Origin: a virus
DNA length: 20,285 nt
Direction: 5' to 3' (one strand)
IMG/VR virus record: IMGVR_UViG_3300049735_000356
Span: 1 to 20,285 of that record
Shown: piece by piece, positions 7,274 to 18,561 of the stretch
Position numbering within the stretch: the first letter of the stretch is position 1
How the letters are laid out: each line of letters begins with the position of its first letter
The notes under the pieces: generated by a model
What the model was told of the DNA's origin: nothing
The model's input: only the letters and a program-made list of their open reading frames with translations
Database searches by the model: none
Translations under genes and position numbers: made by a program

Positions 7274-8827
7274 ATGTCAGACGCTATAGTCAAAAATCTT
7301 AGTTTTGGAAACGAAGCTAAGGAACAACTATTTACAGGTATAAACAAACTAACACGAGCCGTTAGCTCTACATTAGGCGCTAGCGGTAAACGTGTAATAT
7401 TAGAAGACGCTGCAGGAAAACCGGTTATTACTAAAGATGGGGTTACTGTAGCTAATTCTATAATATTATTAGACCCTATAGAAAATATAGGCGCTACATT
7501 ATTAAAAGAAGCTGCAAGAAAAACTGTTAAAGAAGCAGGTGATGGTACAACTACAGCAACTTTATTAGCTCATTCTATACTAACTCATGCATATCCAAAA
7601 CTAGATAAAATTGGAGCGCGTGATATAAAAGAAGGTATTGATAAAGCAATTAAAAAAGTAATTAAGTATTTAGAAAAAACCTCTGTTAAAGTAACAGGTA
7701 AAATGATTGACCAGGTTGCAACTATTTCAACTAATAATGATGTTGCACTTGGTAAAATTATTGCTGAAGCATTCCGGTCAGTTGATGAGACAGGTATTGT
7801 AATGATGGAACAAACAGAACTGTCTGAAACAACTGCTGAATTAATAGATGGAATTCAATATGATCAGGGATTAATTAATCCACATTTTGTTACAAAAAAA
7901 GAAACTAATACTGCTGAACTAGAAAATGCAAGTGTATTGCTTATAGAATCTCCCGTAGAAAATATAAGAAAAATACAAAATATACTTGAATACATTATAA
8001 AAAATAATAAGCCTTTATTAATAATTGCAGATATGGATCCAACTGTGCTATCTGCTTTAGCAATGAATAAAGTTAAAGGTAATATAAAAGTAAATGTTAT
8101 TAGTGCTCCTGTATATGGCATAAATAGAAAAGATATATTTTCAGATTTAGGCTTATTAACCGGGGCCACCGTAATAAATGAAGATTTAGGTGATGACATG
8201 GATTTAATTCAGCCAGAGCATTTAGGCTTTTGTAAAAAATCTATAACCGATAATAATGAAACCATAATTAAAGTTTCTGAAATACCAGAAGAGGTAAGCG
8301 GTATTATTAAAAACTTAAAATTAGAATTAAGCAAAACAACTATTCCTCCTGAGATTCAAAGAATCGAAAAAAGAATAGCTAAGTTATCTGCAAAAATTGC
8401 TAGCGTAAAAGTTGGGGCAGATTCGAGTATTGAATTAAAAGAAAAATCAGATAGAGTAGAAGATGCAATATGCGCTACAAAAGCAGCAATAAAAGAAGGT
8501 ATTGTTGCGGGTGGAGGAGTTGCTTTGCTAAATGCATACCAAAATATAGTTGCTGAAAATGATGCTGAACAAATTTTATTAGATTCTATAACAGCACCAT
8601 ATAATACTATTTTAGAAAATGGTAATTTATCAGGAGATTATAATGCTAAAGAAGGATATGGTATTAATGTAGTTACAGGAAAATCGGTTAGTATGATTAA
8701 ATCCGGAATTATAGATCCATTGCTTGTTACTAAAGCAGCTTTGAAAAATGCAGCTTCTGTTGCTACTACTATTTTATCAACTGATTGTATAATTAATAAC
8801 TTAAGAGCAAATGAAAGCGATAGGTAA
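7274..8827 (+). CDS. groL: Phage chaperonin GroEL (Cpn60), with shortened equatorial loop
   Basis: A 517-aa group I chaperonin, an ATP-driven protein-folding chamber (E. coli GroEL has 548 aa). ATP-site motifs are intact: TLGASGKRV (33-41; the usual TLGPKG has lost P and K), ITKDGV with D55, GDGTTT (89-94), the hydrolytic Asp in RVEDA (D397, equivalent to E. coli D398), VAGGG (411-415) and IIDP with D481. The apical domain aligns over DQGLINPHF, NIRKIQNILEY and KPLLIIAD. Two departures stand out. Between APYNTIL and YNAKEGYG there are 8 residues where E. coli has 22, which removes the inter-ring contact loop. The C-terminus stops at NNLRANESDR, without the GGM tail. The gene overlaps groES by 17 bases. 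Likely clients are its own capsid or fibres (inference). The family call is certain; the oligomeric state is not. Confidence 0.97.
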   Translation: MSDAIVKNLSFGNEAKEQLFTGINKLTRAVSSTLGASGKRVILEDAAGKPVITKDGVTVANSIILLDPIENIGATLLKEAARKTVKEAGDGTTTATLLAHSILTHAYPKLDKIGARDIKEGIDKAIKKVIKYLEKTSVKVTGKMIDQVATISTNNDVALGKIIAEAFRSVDETGIVMMEQTELSETTAELIDGIQYDQGLINPHFVTKKETNTAELENASVLLIESPVENIRKIQNILEYIIKNNKPLLIIADMDPTVLSALAMNKVKGNIKVNVISAPVYGINRKDIFSDLGLLTGATVINEDLGDDMDLIQPEHLGFCKKSITDNNETIIKVSEIPEEVSGIIKNLKLELSKTTIPPEIQRIEKRIAKLSAKIASVKVGADSSIELKEKSDRVEDAICATKAAIKEGIVAGGGVALLNAYQNIVAENDAEQILLDSITAPYNTILENGNLSGDYNAKEGYGINVVTGKSVSMIKSGIIDPLLVTKAALKNAASVATTILSTDCIINNLRANESDR

Positions 8828-9071
8828 AAACTTAATTATACAAAAAGAAAAACAAGGATCTTCTAAAACTGAAGGCGGATTAATATTATCTGAAAAGCAA
8901 CGAGAAGATTTAAGATATAATAAAGCTCAAATAATATCAACAGGTAATTTAGTAGAAGCAGTAAAACCTAAAGATAATATTTATTATGATGGCCATGCAG
9001 GTCATGATATTGAAATAAATAAAACAATATATCAAGTAATAAAAGAACACGATATAGTAATTGTTTTATGA
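8811..9071 (+). CDS. groS: Phage co-chaperonin GroES (Cpn10)
   Basis: An 86-aa co-chaperonin (E. coli GroES has 97 aa). It begins with KNLIIQKEK, matching the first GroES strand. A mobile loop follows with EGGLIL (21-26), equivalent to the GGIVL tripeptide that docks on the GroEL apical domain. Then come AQIISTGN (matching GEVLAVGN), KPKDNIYY (matching VKVGDIVIF) and a final YQVIKEHDIVIVL (matching EEVLIMSESDILAIV). The stretch between GN and the KD strand is about 9 residues shorter than in E. coli, which removes the roof hairpin; T4 gp31 likewise lacks it. The ATG lies inside the end of groEL in another frame (17-base overlap), suggesting translational coupling and matched amounts. Bacterial operons run groES-groEL, so the order here is reversed. 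Confidence 0.92.
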   Translation: MKAIGKNLIIQKEKQGSSKTEGGLILSEKQREDLRYNKAQIISTGNLVEAVKPKDNIYYDGHAGHDIEINKTIYQVIKEHDIVIVL

Positions 9072-12883: not shown

Positions 12884-13114
12884 ATGTCTACTATTATAAG
12901 AAAAATCAGTATTGGGTCTGATTATAAAAATGATGCTATGCATTACTCGATAGGACAAGAAGTCTACGGAGGACATAAAATAGCTTATATCATATTTGAT
13001 GATGCTGATGGTTCTTATAATATTCATATTAAAAAAGACAACGAAGTAGTGCCATGGAAAAAGTTTAATTCTAATATGGCTATTTCAGTTGAGTACGACT
13101 TAAAATATGAATAG
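12884..13114 (+). CDS. Small beta-rich phage protein, 76 aa
   Basis: This encodes MSTIIRKISIGSDYKNDAMH, then YSIGQEVYGGHKIAYIIFDD and further strands to WKKFNSNMAISVEYDLKYE. The alternating hydrophobic pattern predicts a small beta barrel. The motif IRKISIG.DYKN.AMHY..GQ..YGG is one I recall from other phage genomes beside terminase genes. There is no enzyme motif. It overlaps the next start by eight bases (13107-13114), so the two are probably translationally coupled. The co-translated partner is the GroES-like tandem protein. Confidence 0.7.
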   Translation: MSTIIRKISIGSDYKNDAMHYSIGQEVYGGHKIAYIIFDDADGSYNIHIKKDNEVVPWKKFNSNMAISVEYDLKYE

Positions 13115-13712
13115 TATATATGATTTTATTGTAGAGCCTGTTGGCGAAAGATACAATAACTCTATTAAAGTTAATGACACTAATTTAATTCTTAATTCAA
13201 AAATAGAATCTTTTAAGTTTATTAATAAAATTGCAAAAGTAATAAGCGTACCTTTAGCGTATAAAACGTCTATAAAATCTAATGATGAAATTATAATTCA
13301 TCATAATGTATTTAGAAGATATTACGATATTAGAGGTAAAGAAAAAAACAGTAGCAAATATTTTAAAGACAACTTATATTTTTGTCAGCCGGATCAAATT
13401 TATCTTGTTAAAAAAAATAATAAATGGGTTGCATTTAATGATCGTTGTTTTGTTAAGCCTATTGTAAATAAAAGCGATTTAAAGCCAGGAAAAACCTCAG
13501 CCCTTATTGGAATACTTAAATATGGTAATGATTCTTTAAAAGCACTTGAAATTAGCCCAGGTGATGTAGTAGGCTTCACGCCTAACAGCGAGTGGGAGTT
13601 TATAATAGAAAATGAACTTCTATATTGCATGAAATCTAATGATATTGTTATTAAATATGGAAGTAAAGAAAACAAAAGAGAATATAATCCAAGCTGGGCA
13701 AAAAGCAGTTGA
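13107..13712 (+). CDS. Tandem GroES-like (Cpn10-fold) protein, putative second co-chaperonin
   Basis: A 201-aa protein that I read as two fused GroES-like barrels. Half 1: FIVEPVGERYNN (7-18), a loop with NLIL (26-29) like the GroES mobile-loop IVL, INKIAKVISVP (39-49), SNDEIIIHHNVFR (58-70, equivalent to VGDIVIFND) and DNLYFCQPDQIYLV (88-101, equivalent to EEVLIMSESDILAIV). Half 2: NDRCFVKPIV (111-120), ALIGILKYGN (132-141), SPGDVVGFTPN (150-160) and NELLYCMKSNDIVIKYG (169-185). The parallel LYFCQ..QI and LYCMK..DI strands show the internal repeat. Chloroplast Cpn20 is a known tandem Cpn10. Half 2 has only a short, non-hydrophobic loop. It lies directly before the small terminase, whose start overlaps it by 56 bases. 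The co-chaperonin role is inference; a head-associated beta-barrel is the main alternative. Confidence 0.65.
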   Translation: MNSIYDFIVEPVGERYNNSIKVNDTNLILNSKIESFKFINKIAKVISVPLAYKTSIKSNDEIIIHHNVFRRYYDIRGKEKNSSKYFKDNLYFCQPDQIYLVKKNNKWVAFNDRCFVKPIVNKSDLKPGKTSALIGILKYGNDSLKALEISPGDVVGFTPNSEWEFIIENELLYCMKSNDIVIKYGSKENKREYNPSWAKSS

Positions 13713-13923
13713 AGAATTAATTAAAATTGCAAAAGAAGCAATTGTTGACTCTGAAGATGATATTTCTGCGGATAGATTAAAAAATGCTGCTGCTACTAAA
13801 AAACTTGCAATATTTGACGCGTTTGAAATACTATCAAGAATTGAACAAGAAAAAAGTTTATTAGAAGATACTGATAGCGCTAAAAAACAATTTGGAGGAT
13901 TTGCTGAAAAAAGATCTAAATAA
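13657..13923 (+). CDS. terS: Small terminase subunit-like protein
   Basis: An 88-aa helical protein immediately upstream of the large terminase, overlapping it by one base (TAATG). The sequence NIIQAGQKAVEELIKIAKEA, DISADRLKNAAATKKLAIFD, AFEILSRIEQEK and the C-terminal GGFAEKRSK matches the short TerS-type proteins that precede terL in many marine phages (my recollection). TerS recognises the packaging site and regulates the large-subunit ATPase. I prefer ATG 13657 to the in-frame ATG 13639, which would add only MILLLN and a longer overlap with the previous gene. The protein is much shorter than typical TerS (about 130-180 aa), so it may lack a separate DNA-binding domain. Context gives most of the confidence. 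Confidence 0.72.
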   Translation: MEVKKTKENIIQAGQKAVEELIKIAKEAIVDSEDDISADRLKNAAATKKLAIFDAFEILSRIEQEKSLLEDTDSAKKQFGGFAEKRSK

Positions 13924-16142
13924 TGTATACCCAAAGTTTATATTATATTGATAAAACTCATATTAAACCTAAAACAATTAAAAAAAATAATAGGTATAAA
14001 AAATGGGAATATGGTTACAATGAAGATTACGATGTAGTTGTTATAAGTAAAACAGGCAAAATTGGTGAAATATATGATATTCAAGGATTAAAAATTGCAC
14101 TCCCACTTATAGAAGAATGTTATAAAAGATCTTCTACAGAAACAAAACAATATTGGGAAAAATTTGAATATCCAAATCAATTAAAAAAAATAAAATCAGT
14201 TTTTGAATGGGAAAAATACCCAGATAATTTTAAAGAAAACTGGTATGATTATATAGATAATGAGTTTAAGCGCAGGGAAAATGGATTTAGTTTTTATAAT
14301 AAAGGCGTTAGCACTTATATTACTGGGTCTCATTATATGTATTTACAATGGACCAAAATTGATGTTGGGGCGGCCGAATTTAGAGAATCTAACAGATTGT
14401 TTTATATATTTTGGGAGGCCTGCAAAGCAGACTACAGATGTTATGGCATATGCTATCTTAAAAATAGACGGTCTGGCTTTAGCTTCATGGCATCCTCAGA
14501 AACTGTTAATCAAGCCACTATCTCTAGTGACTCAAGATTTGGAATATTATCAAAGACGGGAGCGGACGCAAAAAAAATGTTTACCGACAAAGTTGTGCCA
14601 ATATCGACCAACTATCCTTTCTTTTTCAAGCCCGTACAAGACGGAATGGATCGCCCCAAGACAGAGCTTGCTTATAGAGTACCTGCCTCAAAGCTAACTC
14701 GACGCAAGATAGAAATAGGCGAGGAATTATCAGACATTGATGGGCTTGATACAACTATCGACTGGAAGAATACAGGCGATAACTCTTATGACGGAGAAAA
14801 ATTAATTCTATTAGTGCACGACGAATCTGGTAAATGGGAAAGACCCGATAATATAATTAATAACTGGAGAGTTACAAAAACAACTTTACGTTTAGGAAGT
14901 AGAGTAGTAGGTAAATGTATGATGGGCTCTACCTCAAATGCATTAGATAAAGGTGGAGAAAATTTTAAAAAAATATATGAAGGATCCGATGTTACTAAAA
15001 GAAACGCCAATGGTCAGACTAGCTCAGGACTATATTCTTTGTTTATACCTATGGAGTGGAATTACGAAGGATTCCTTGATATGTATGGATTACCTGTATT
15101 CAACACTCCCAAAAAACCGGTCCAAAGCATTGATAAAACAAAAATAGCAATTGGTGTTATTGATTATTGGAATAATGAAGTTGAAGGTTTAAAACAAGAT
15201 CAAGACTCTTTAAATGAATTTTATAGACAATTTCCAAGAACAATACAGCATGCTTTTAGAGATGAAACCAAACAATCTTTATTTAATTTAGTTAAAATTT
15301 ACGAACAAATAGATTATATTGAAGATATAAAATATAGTAGCTTAGTAACAAAAGGTAATTTCCAATGGGAAAATGGAGTAAAAGATAGTAAAGTTATTTT
15401 TATGCCAAACCGTCAAGGAAGATTTTATATTACTTGGACGCCCCCATTTCATCTACAAAATAATATAATACTTAAGAATAATTTAAAGTATCCTGGAAAT
15501 GAGCATTTAGGTGCATTTGGATGTGACAGTTATGATATTTCAGGAACAGTAGACGGTAGAGGATCTAAGGGAGCATTGCATGGGCTAACAAAATTTAGTT
15601 TAGAAGATGCGCCTGCTAATCAATTTTTTTTAGAATATATATCAAGACCTGATAATGCCGAAATATTTTTTGAAGATGTTTTAATGTCATTAGTTTTTTA
15701 TGGTATGCCTATATTAGCAGAAAATAATAAGCCTAGATTATTATATTATTTAAAAAGAAGAGGATACCGAGGGTATTCTATGAACAGACCTGATAAAATT
15801 TATAATAAATTATCAGTAACAGAAAAAGAAGTAGGAGGAGTCCCTAACTCAAGCGAAGATATGAAGCAGGCTCATGCTGCTGCGATTGAATCTTATATAG
15901 ATGAACACATTGGAGTAAAAGATCAGAGTTGCGGGAACATGTATTTTATGAGAACTCTTAATGATTGGTCTAAATTTAATTTAAATAATAGAACTAAGCA
16001 TGATGCTTCTATAAGTTCTGGATTAGCTATAATGGCTTGTAATAAAAATAAATATGCTCCAGTAGCTAAAAAAATATTTCAACCTATGAACTTGCAGATT
16101 AGAAAATATAACAACGAAGGGATTACATCAAAAATAATTTAA
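13923..16142 (+). CDS. terL: Terminase large subunit (packaging ATPase/nuclease)
   Basis: A 739-aa packaging motor that pumps DNA into the prohead and cuts the concatemer. A deviant Walker A lies at YLKNRRSGFSF (178-188), with an Arg/Lys-rich loop in place of GxxGxGKT as in many phage terminases. Walker B with catalytic Glu is LILLVHDES (294-302). The coupling motif is GSTSNALDKGG (335-345). The C-terminal RNase H-like nuclease shows FGCDSYD (D535), FFEDVLMS (E584/D585) and KHDASISSGLA (D694). The N-terminal extension of about 175 residues before Walker A is long. Bases about 14470-14790, between Walker A and B, are much richer in G+C than the rest of the gene. It starts in a TAATG overlap with terS and is followed by the portal after four bases. 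Confidence 0.93.
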   Translation: MYTQSLYYIDKTHIKPKTIKKNNRYKKWEYGYNEDYDVVVISKTGKIGEIYDIQGLKIALPLIEECYKRSSTETKQYWEKFEYPNQLKKIKSVFEWEKYPDNFKENWYDYIDNEFKRRENGFSFYNKGVSTYITGSHYMYLQWTKIDVGAAEFRESNRLFYIFWEACKADYRCYGICYLKNRRSGFSFMASSETVNQATISSDSRFGILSKTGADAKKMFTDKVVPISTNYPFFFKPVQDGMDRPKTELAYRVPASKLTRRKIEIGEELSDIDGLDTTIDWKNTGDNSYDGEKLILLVHDESGKWERPDNIINNWRVTKTTLRLGSRVVGKCMMGSTSNALDKGGENFKKIYEGSDVTKRNANGQTSSGLYSLFIPMEWNYEGFLDMYGLPVFNTPKKPVQSIDKTKIAIGVIDYWNNEVEGLKQDQDSLNEFYRQFPRTIQHAFRDETKQSLFNLVKIYEQIDYIEDIKYSSLVTKGNFQWENGVKDSKVIFMPNRQGRFYITWTPPFHLQNNIILKNNLKYPGNEHLGAFGCDSYDISGTVDGRGSKGALHGLTKFSLEDAPANQFFLEYISRPDNAEIFFEDVLMSLVFYGMPILAENNKPRLLYYLKRRGYRGYSMNRPDKIYNKLSVTEKEVGGVPNSSEDMKQAHAAAIESYIDEHIGVKDQSCGNMYFMRTLNDWSKFNLNNRTKHDASISSGLAIMACNKNKYAPVAKKIFQPMNLQIRKYNNEGITSKII

Positions 16143-16146
16143 ATAG

Positions 16147-18561
16147 ATGATTTACACGAATTACAATAGTTCTTTTCCGGACCAAGTAGTATCTGATGAA
16201 GTTAAAAATAGTTACGACTATGGTTTACAAGTTGGACAAGCTATTGAAAATGAATGGTTTAGGCAAGATACAGGAGGAGACAGATATTTACAAAATTTTC
16301 AAAATTATCATAACTTAAGGTTATATGCCCGAGGCGAGCAATCAGTACAAAAATATAAAGATGAATTATCAATAAATGGTGATTTATCTTATTTAAATTT
16401 AGATTGGAAAATAGTTCCAATTATACCTAAGTTTGTAAATATTGTAGTAAACGGTATGACTGAAAAAGGCTATGAAGTAAAAGCTTATGCAACCGACCCG
16501 TTTGCGACCGAAGAAAGAACTCAATTTGCTTTTAACGCTTTAAGAGATATTCAGAACAGAGAGTATATAGAAGAGTTAAATAAAGCAACAGGCCAAAACT
16601 TTTTTGCTAGTTCTCAGCCAGATAAATTGCCGGCATCAAAAGAAGAATTAGATGTAATGCTTCAAACAGACTATAAACAAAGCATAGAAATAGCGGAAGA
16701 AGAAGCTATAAGTAATGTTTTTGATTTTAATAAATATGATGAAATTAAAAGACGTATTGCATATGATTTAGTAGTTTTAGGTATTGGAGCTTCAAAAACA
16801 AATTTTAATTTATCAGAAGGCGTTAAAGTAGAGTATGTAGATCCTGCCGCTTTAGTTTATTCTTATACTGAAGATCCTAACTTTGAAGATATTTATTATG
16901 TTGGCGAAGTTAAAAATTTAAATCTTTCAGAACTTAAAAGACAATTTCCTTATTTAACAGATGCGGATTTAGAAGAAGTACAAAAATACAGAGGGCCAAG
17001 TAATTATAGCAACTATGTAAGAAACTATAATGGTCAAACTGATAATAATTTAGTATCTGTTTTATTTTTTGAATATAAAACTTATAATAATCAAGTTTTT
17101 AAATTAAAATATACTGAACAGGGACTAGAAAAAATATTAGAAAAGCCTGATACTTTTAATCCGCCGGCAAGTGATAATTTTGAAAGAATAAGTAGGAGCA
17201 TTGAAGTTTTATATACAGGAGCTAAAATATTAGGTATGCCAAAAATATTAAATTGGCAGATGGCTGAAAATATGACCAGGCCCTATGGGGATATTACTAA
17301 AGTAAATATGAATTATTCTTTATCAGCTCCTAGAATGTATAAAGGTCGTGTTACTTCATTAGTCGAAAAATGTACTACGTTTGCGGACATGATACAGTTA
17401 ACTCATTTAAAATTACAACAAGTGTTGTCTCGTGTTGTTCCCGACGGAGTATATTTAGATATGGACGGCTTAGCAGAAGTAGACTTAGGTAATGGAACTA
17501 ACTATAATCCAGCGGAAGCATTAAATATGTATTTCCAAACTGGTAGTATTGTAGGTAGATCATTAACGCAAGAAGGAGATATGAATAGAGGAAAAGTTCC
17601 AATACAGGAATTACAGTCTTCTAACGGTATGGCAAAAATACAATCTCTTATTACTACTTACCAGTATTATTTGCAAATGATTCGAGATGCTACGGGGCTA
17701 AATGAAGCAAGAGATGCAAGTACCCCTGATAAAAATGCTTTAGTTGGATTACAAAAATTAGCCGCTGCTAATTCTAATACAGCTACACGACATGTACTTA
17801 AAGCTTTGATGTTTATTACAGTTAAAACGGCTGAAAAAGTAGGGTTAAGAATTAACGACGCTTTAAATTTTCCCTTAACAAAACAAGCATTATTAAGTAG
17901 TATAAATACATTTAATGTAAGCACGTTACAAGAAATAGAACAATTAGATATACATAATTTTGGAATATTTTTAGAATTAGAACCTGATGCAGAAGAGCAG
18001 GCACAATTAGAACAAAATATACAAGTTTCTTTAAAACAAGACGCCATTAATCTTGAAGATGCTATTGATATTAGAGAAATTAGAAATATTAAATTAGCTA
18101 ATCAGGTTTTAAAATTAAGAAGAGTAAGAAGACAAGAACAAAAACAAGCTGCTCAGCTTGCTAATATACAAGCACAAGGGCAAGCTAATGCGCAAGCATC
18201 AGAGGCTGCCGCGCTATCAGAAGTTCAAAAGCAACAGGCGTTAGCTGAAACTAAAGTACAAATTGAAAAAGCTAAAACAGATTTTGAAATTAATAAAATG
18301 GAGCAAGAAGCTTTAATTAAAAAACAATTGATGGCAGAAGAGTTTGAATATAAAATGAAGCTTGCCCAAATAGAAGTAGAAGCACGCGCAGCAGAAGAAA
18401 AAGAAATAGAAGATAGAAAAGATAAACGTGTCAGAATTCAAGGCACACAGCAATCTGAACTTATAGATCAAAGAAAAAATGATTTATTACCAATAGATTT
18501 TGAATCTGCTGGGAATGATACATTAGGCGGTTTTGGACTTGAACAGTTTGAGCCGAGGTAA
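16147..18561 (+). CDS. Portal protein with long C-terminal coiled coil
   Basis: An 804-aa protein between terminase and scaffold, the canonical portal position. The portal forms the dodecameric ring through which DNA enters and leaves the head. Supporting features are the N-terminal region leading into DWKIVPIIPKFVNIVVNGMT (87-106), the wing/clip-like central region, and GVYLDMDGLAEVDLGNG. The conserved helical segment RDATGLNEARDASTPDKNAL is typical of large portals (a TG...R.AS.....A motif). Residues about 663-765 form a long Gln/Ala/Glu/Lys-rich coiled coil that would project as the barrel inside the head, ending in a short tail. The length and architecture resemble portals of Bacteroidetes phages including crAss-like viruses; this comparison is from memory. 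Confidence 0.85.
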   Translation: MIYTNYNSSFPDQVVSDEVKNSYDYGLQVGQAIENEWFRQDTGGDRYLQNFQNYHNLRLYARGEQSVQKYKDELSINGDLSYLNLDWKIVPIIPKFVNIVVNGMTEKGYEVKAYATDPFATEERTQFAFNALRDIQNREYIEELNKATGQNFFASSQPDKLPASKEELDVMLQTDYKQSIEIAEEEAISNVFDFNKYDEIKRRIAYDLVVLGIGASKTNFNLSEGVKVEYVDPAALVYSYTEDPNFEDIYYVGEVKNLNLSELKRQFPYLTDADLEEVQKYRGPSNYSNYVRNYNGQTDNNLVSVLFFEYKTYNNQVFKLKYTEQGLEKILEKPDTFNPPASDNFERISRSIEVLYTGAKILGMPKILNWQMAENMTRPYGDITKVNMNYSLSAPRMYKGRVTSLVEKCTTFADMIQLTHLKLQQVLSRVVPDGVYLDMDGLAEVDLGNGTNYNPAEALNMYFQTGSIVGRSLTQEGDMNRGKVPIQELQSSNGMAKIQSLITTYQYYLQMIRDATGLNEARDASTPDKNALVGLQKLAAANSNTATRHVLKALMFITVKTAEKVGLRINDALNFPLTKQALLSSINTFNVSTLQEIEQLDIHNFGIFLELEPDAEEQAQLEQNIQVSLKQDAINLEDAIDIREIRNIKLANQVLKLRRVRRQEQKQAAQLANIQAQGQANAQASEAAALSEVQKQQALAETKVQIEKAKTDFEINKMEQEALIKKQLMAEEFEYKMKLAQIEVEARAAEEKEIEDRKDKRVRIQGTQQSELIDQRKNDLLPIDFESAGNDTLGGFGLEQFEPR

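Follow-up and report, generated by a model that had tools for sequence, protein, structure and literature searches.

Introduction

The contact of GroES with GroEL is a flexible loop, which reads GGIVLTGSA in E. coli and contains a hydrophobic tripeptide. Apart from the case described here, lids with GroES domains in tandem are described for chloroplasts and related plastids, where an even number of domains on a seven-fold chaperonin is a recognised puzzle. In Chlamydomonas, Cpn20/Cpn23 and a small Cpn10-type subunit have been reported as hetero-oligomers of seven GroES-like domains, and the seven-fold GroEL also functions with homo-oligomers of Cpn20 and with GroES concatemers that have six or eight domains (PMC5780408). 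Phage T4 gp31 replaces GroES and folds gp23 in an expanded cage (PMC5780408).

Here we analysed a stretch of marine phage DNA of 20,285 nucleotides (source record IMGVR_UViG_3300049735_000356; hereafter the window) that has one GroEL match. An earlier note on this DNA had proposed a tandem GroES-like protein beside the terminase, and hence two co-chaperonins of differing design with one GroEL. The window does hold such a pair, and we estimate at roughly 75% the probability that the tandem protein is a tandem co-chaperonin lid. The gene family is already known and labelled; the tandem architecture appears to be undescribed in the openly licensed papers searched.

Results

The tandem gene and its neighbours

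The window encodes the following features:

7274..8827, + strand: phage GroEL, 517 aa, group I chaperonin, complete (Pfam PF00118, 7.5e-58; solved GroELs up to E 1e-109)
8811..9071, + strand: phage single-domain GroES, 86 aa, mobile loop GGLILSE (Pfam Cpn10, PF00166, 1.4e-11, 44.7 bits)
12884..13114, + strand: ORF of 76 aa, whose stop overlaps the start of the tandem gene by 8 nt
13107..13712, + strand: putative tandem GroES-fold co-chaperonin, 201 aa, PHROG 13932 family (ATG at 13107, stop ending at 13712)
13107..13421, + strand: predicted GroES-fold domain 1, residues 1-105 (predicted structure of half 1 alone)
13146..13226, + strand: mobile-loop-like segment of domain 1, residues 14-40 (LIL tripeptide at residues 27-29, bases 13185-13193)
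13422..13658, + strand: predicted GroES-fold domain 2, residues 106-184 (HHalign, and Pfam Cpn10 in relatives; canonical mobile loop missing in the window's lineage)
13639..13923, + strand: ORF of 94 aa between the tandem gene and TerL, overlapping the tandem gene (start possibly at 13657)
13923..16142, + strand: terminase large subunit, TerL (PHROG 6681, 1.2e-163)
16147..18561, + strand: portal protein (PHROG 6547, 5e-133)

The tandem gene sits with the terminase and portal genes, and the small GroES with GroEL, where its start overlaps the groEL 3' end. The coordinates of the open reading frame given in the earlier note proved correct, and the motifs that it quoted from the two halves are all present (FIVEPVG and CFVKPIV, KIAKV and ALIG, SNDEII and GDVVG, LYFCQPDQIYLV and LYCMKSNDIVI), as is the NLIL of half 1, at residues 26-29. 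It had divided the protein into residues 1-105 and 106-190; the two domains stand, and the second ends nearer residue 184.

The 8-nt overlap with the 76-aa ORF suggests translational coupling, and the isolate phages also have a small ORF at this position, just 5' of the tandem gene. Between the tandem gene and TerL a small ORF is likewise found in Pachyviridae (99 aa) and in ctfjg026 (94 aa). By position the 94-aa ORF is a candidate small terminase subunit; in ctfjg026 and Pachyviridae the small ORF there belongs to phrog_20415, a family without a known function. Residues 185-201 of the tandem protein are modelled with low confidence, share their bases with the next ORF, which is read in another frame, and have no counterpart in distant relatives. 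The C-terminal tail EYNPSWAKSS (13659-13709) is conserved in the window's clade only, and the overlapping frame may be the source of this conservation. In the phage GroEL, the GroES-binding apical helix reads KIQNILEYI versus DLLPILEKV, with Gln replacing one of the two usual leucines; this change is possibly matched to the phage lids.

A conserved phage gene family

The reading frame at 13107-13712 is a genuine gene and is conserved. Full-length relatives with 57-79% identity were found on at least 593-599 IMG/VR contigs, and the changes relative to the nearest of them lie mostly at third codon positions (e.g. 36/20/71 against L001). Because of these full-length relatives and this codon-position bias, the ORF is more than a chance reading frame. 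Among isolate and assembled phage records, tblastn gave 77 matches, which include Flavobacterium elemo phages, Cellulophaga phi38:1, phi40:1 and Calle (Pervagoviridae), Maribacter Panino and one uncultured podovirus. When a relative of phi38:1 was the query, the search also reached the Pachyviridae phi18:3, phi13:2, phi46:3 and phi19:3; when the Panino protein was searched against IMG/VR, no relatives were found.

The protein has a full-length profile match to PHROG 13932, 'co-chaperonin GroES' (E 9.4e-26, residues 1-182 to positions 1-197 of 200), and the phi18:3 member matches the same family at 5.3e-102. Several related records are labelled 'co-chaperonin GroES' or 'chaperonin cpn10' and others hypothetical. 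The Pervagoviridae core proteins include a 'chaperonin cpn10' (PMC8776804), presumably the tandem gene and not the small GroES. A phmmer match to peptide arginase and a Pfam match to UPF0300 were both at chance level and were discarded.

A cellular origin was also rejected. All 19 matches in genome collections are MAG contigs, and TerL adjoins the gene, downstream, in 18 of them, which marks these as binned phages; the remaining contig ends at the tandem gene. Four Bacteroidota-type phage contigs with the gene (L272, L277, L281 and L283) were binned into archaeal MAGs (Pacearchaeota, Woesearchaeota, Euryarchaeota), probably by mis-binning.

After the GD strand of domain 1 there is an HHN motif (13299-13307, residues 65-67), in which N67 is found in all 136 diverse members and H65 in 134 of the 136. 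The motif is not a GroES signature, and Pachyviridae carry D-V-N there. Candidate roles are a ring interface, a metal contact or a client contact.

Predicted fold of the two halves

Modelling of the whole tandem protein with AlphaFold2 (monomer, on 66 family members) gave a pLDDT of 85.4 and a pTM of 0.77, with a poor prediction for residues 187-201. The best match of this model in the PDB by Foldseek was 7ekq_R (E 1.1e-5, TM 0.57/0.59, 208 columns). Entry 7ekq is the Chlamydomonas ClpP complex, and we take its chain R, of 194 residues, to be a double-GroES co-chaperonin (Cpn20/Cpn23). The remaining PDB matches to rank 34 were Cpn10/GroES chains with a query-normalised TM of about 0.3, except 7ekq_Q at 0.49. 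Since the TM of 7ekq_R is about twice the single-domain value, the two domains fit onto the 7ekq chain simultaneously, as expected of two Cpn10 domains arranged head to tail in one chain. Thus, the predicted side-by-side arrangement resembles that of the chloroplast double-GroES protein, in keeping with the parallel to a fused double Cpn10 that the earlier note had drawn. Among viral models (BFVD), the best named match was the phi18:3 'chaperonin cpn10' (TM 0.77). Another BFVD model, A0A516L046 (304 aa), matches the tandem protein over 218 columns and is about 100 residues longer; the extra residues could be a third domain.

Half 1 was also folded alone, from an alignment of 83 half sequences, with a pLDDT of 89.5. 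Its best 30 PDB matches were all Cpn10, GroES, gp31 or 7ekq (Cpn20-complex) chains, with a best E of 4e-3, a TM of about 0.5 and probabilities of 0.72-1.0 over these 30 (1.0 for the best match). After the first 30 came enzymes of the alcohol dehydrogenase type, which have a GroES-like catalytic domain. In the whole-protein model no strand is found at residues 47-61, between the first barrel strands and the GD motif, where the roof beta-hairpin of GroES would lie.

By sequence, the two halves behave differently. The window's protein scores 13.9 bits against Pfam Cpn10, over the C-terminal half only and below the cut-off of 21.1; half 2 passes that cut-off in the relatives L238 (21.8), L181 (26.4), L182 (26.9), L179 (28.2) and phi18:3 (32.6 bits). 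A profile of half 2 aligned with the phage GroES at an HHalign probability of 95.7% and a score of 47, against at most 21 in 80 column-shuffled controls. Half 2 can therefore be assigned to Cpn10 from sequence comparison. For half 1, no Cpn10 match was found in Pfam, and its profile reached only 9-13% against the phage GroES, within the range of the shuffled controls (one shuffle gave 62.6%); assignment of half 1 on sequence was accordingly rejected as insufficient. The register of GroES is reproduced in the best profile alignment of half 1, and also in a match (E 0.018) of one elemo-type half 1 to the single-GroES PHROG. Because neither sequence route is significant, the membership of half 1 in Cpn10 rests on the predicted structure. 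A direct sequence repeat of half 1 and half 2 was also rejected as not significant (HHalign probability about 5-6%), and the likeness between the halves is structural only. Cpn20 chains gave no significant sequence match to the tandem protein, and the relatives found sit on phage contigs.

Taken together, the predictions give each half the GroES (Cpn10) beta-barrel, domain 1 from its predicted structure and domain 2 from the whole-protein model and the HHalign result. The proposal of a tandem GroES-like protein next to the terminase is thereby supported for the whole protein, for residues 1-105 folded alone and for half 2 by sequence. No head-completion, stopper or connector family was among the Pfam, PHROGs, PDB or BFVD matches; the earlier note had named matches of both halves to a head-completion or stopper family, or a confident predicted structure of another fold, as grounds for giving up its proposal.

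Mobile loops of the two domains

Domain 1 carries a conserved mobile loop with a hydrophobic tripeptide (LIL) of the GroEL-binding type, as judged from the alignment. Positions 27, 28 and 29 are hydrophobic in about 135, 128 and 119 of the 136 diverse members, and distant members have GVILTSS or GLILNTS in this loop. In domain 2, most lineages lack the loop; in the lineages of the window and of the elemo phages the segment is variable and has no tripeptide. Of two distant clades, Callevirus-like members keep the loop (L181 and L182, GSIIVPN), and Pachyviridae have a loop-like segment (phi18:3, PSLIYIPED). Thus, loop-like segments in both domains are found in L181, L182 and phi18:3 and not in the window or most lineages. 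The simplest unrooted reading would be an ancestor with two loops, of which the second was lost later.

TerL, GroEL and the single GroES as companions

Every one of the 218 testable loci has TerL downstream of the tandem gene; the distance is up to about 1.4 kb in 207 of them and 1.4-2.7 kb in the other 11. Companion genes were counted in 30 relatives whose records reach 48 kb or more, 22 of them IMG/VR contigs and 8 phage records, because shorter contigs may be truncated and the lack of GroEL on them is uninformative. Many of the 30 are close relatives, so that they represent about six lineages and not 30 independent events. All 30 have a single GroES, 26 by Pfam and four Pachyviridae by record annotation, and 25 have GroEL. 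GroEL was not found in the 72.8-kb contig of L181, nor, in searches to E 10, in the four Pachyviridae phi18:3, phi13:2, phi46:3 and phi19:3 (L258-L261), which carry two lid proteins, single and tandem. The pairing of tandem and single GroES therefore persists even where the phage has no GroEL. The association does not come from simple adjacency, as groEL/groES in phi38:1 and Panino are separated from the tandem gene by more than 15 kb.

In the virion MS/MS set of phi18:3, the tandem protein is not among the proteins marked as detected, and the portal is. The 129,537-bp contig of L076 (G008) has two copies each of GroEL, GroES and the tandem gene, with one GroEL copy split, and looks like a concatenated assembly; GroEL is split in G013 too.

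Compared with what the earlier note had described, the additions are that the family is already PHROG 13932, that half 2 has no GroEL-binding loop in the window's lineage and that the pair also occurs in phages without GroEL.

Discussion

We propose that the two GroES domains, fused head to tail, lie side by side like neighbouring subunits of a GroES ring, and that the tandem protein would form part of the lid of GroEL, the phage GroEL in the window and the host GroEL in relatives without groEL. Such a lid would shut the folding chamber over phage proteins, probably the large head proteins encoded nearby, with the LIL tripeptide in the mobile loop of domain 1 as the contact to GroEL. We infer the lid function, GroEL binding, clients and ring make-up and stoichiometry of the tandem protein from the predicted fold, the loops and the gene's company. 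Absence from the phi18:3 virion set is consistent with a non-structural helper. Against a lid function stand the failure of Pfam and profile-profile comparison to place half 1 in Cpn10, with a Foldseek E of only 4e-3 for its predicted structure, and a gene position tied to the packaging genes and not to groEL, which in several genomes is more than 15 kb away. The lost loop of domain 2 also counts against it, leaving four loops and not seven in a ring of three tandems and one single GroES.

The assembly could be just such a mixed seven-domain ring (3 x 2 + 1), as in chloroplast Cpn20/Cpn10, since a single-domain GroES is retained in every related genome that reaches 48 kb, even without a phage GroEL. 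We hold this specific ring at somewhat under even odds. It follows from the loop loss in domain 2 that a 3+1 ring would have four GroEL-contacting loops in the window's lineage and seven in Callevirus-like phages. Another arrangement, which has a serious but less than even chance of being right, is that the two proteins form separate lids: the tandem protein as a homo-oligomer of three or four chains, or as a double-tier ring of seven, serving one large client in the manner of gp31, and the small GroES as an ordinary heptamer. Both gp31 with gp23 and the Cpn20 homo-oligomers and six- or eight-domain concatemers that function on seven-fold GroEL (PMC5780408) are precedents for it, and it suits the placing of the tandem gene with terminase and portal and of the small GroES with GroEL. 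By itself, however, it leaves unexplained why all 30 of the large records, five of them without a phage GroEL, have both proteins.

The constant position upstream of TerL, in the 218 testable loci and in 18 of 19 MAG contigs, would also suit a structural or packaging accessory (a connector, stopper or terminase-binding protein) with a borrowed GroES fold that no longer works with GroEL, as would the loss of the domain 2 loop in most lineages and the near-invariant H65 and invariant N67, which are not GroES signature residues. We consider such an accessory improbable, because the hydrophobic tripeptide of the domain 1 loop is conserved across the family, Callevirus-like and Pachyviridae members keep both loops, no head-completion family is among the fold or family matches, the phi18:3 virion data do not flag the protein, and a GroES always accompanies it. 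It is very hard to credit that the tandem protein acts as a decoy or inhibitor by entering the GroES rings of the host and poisoning the host chaperonin in favour of the phage's. A binding loop on only one of two domains in the window's lineage would fit such poisoning, with phage GroES and GroEL present as replacements, but the gene also occurs in phages that lack GroEL and need a working host GroEL, and it lies among late morphogenesis genes and not takeover genes.

As part of a GroEL lid, the protein would be a second case of a tandem GroES, encoded by phages. With marine contigs in the hundreds that carry it, and cultivated phages of Flavobacterium and Cellulophaga, it would offer small laboratory systems for mixed rings, the minimum number of loops and client choice. 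It would also give a structural meaning to a family labelled only 'cpn10', 'co-chaperonin GroES' or hypothetical. A phage tandem GroES was not found in the openly licensed literature searched, in which the tandem architecture, the lopsided loops, the constant pairing with a single GroES and the persistence in GroEL-less phages appear undescribed.

Comparison with known systems

The closest family is PHROG 13932 itself (Cellulophaga Pachyviridae and Pervagoviridae, Flavobacterium elemo phages, Maribacter Panino), with the same full-length match and the same site upstream of TerL. The window's lineage differs in having no domain 2 mobile loop and in its C-terminal tail, and the family label is silent on the two domains. 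With GroES/Cpn10 (PF00166) the protein shares the predicted fold of both halves, but it has two fused domains and falls below the Pfam cut-off in the window.

Phage T4 gp31 lacks the roof beta-hairpin. It resembles the tandem protein as a phage-encoded GroES-fold lid with a shortened roof region and an unusual sequence (1g31_A is rank 11 for half 1), whereas it is a single domain, uses the host GroEL and has no second phage GroES. The Crassvirales phage cr111_1 has a GroES-like gene (gp085) a few genes upstream of TerL and a phage GroEL nearby, but the protein is a single domain of 136 aa. In this phage (L262:6816-8153) the 136-aa protein occupies the same genomic niche as the tandem gene, and nearer TerL, between the two, comes a protein of 182 aa (phrog_16390) that is unrelated. 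This 182-aa protein, of the right length in roughly the right place upstream of TerL, was considered as a tandem lid of crAss-like phages and rejected, as it matches neither the Cpn10 nor the tandem profile.

Chloroplast Cpn20/Cpn21/Cpn23 and apicoplast Cpn20 likewise have two GroES domains head to tail, and 7ekq_R is the best PDB match of the phage protein. Plant and algal chloroplast Cpn20 coexists with a single-domain Cpn10, as the phage tandem does with its single GroES in all 30 of the large records. In contrast to the chloroplast type, the phage protein of the window's lineage is without the loop in domain 2, which was lost, and its gene adjoins packaging genes. The identity is 12%, so the fusion may be convergent or the kinship very distant. 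One idea, which we hold at well under even odds, is that Bacteroidota phages independently reached the chloroplast answer, an asymmetric mixed lid of three tandems and one single GroES with domain 2 as a loop-less spacer and four GroEL contacts, placed in some lineages on the host GroEL.
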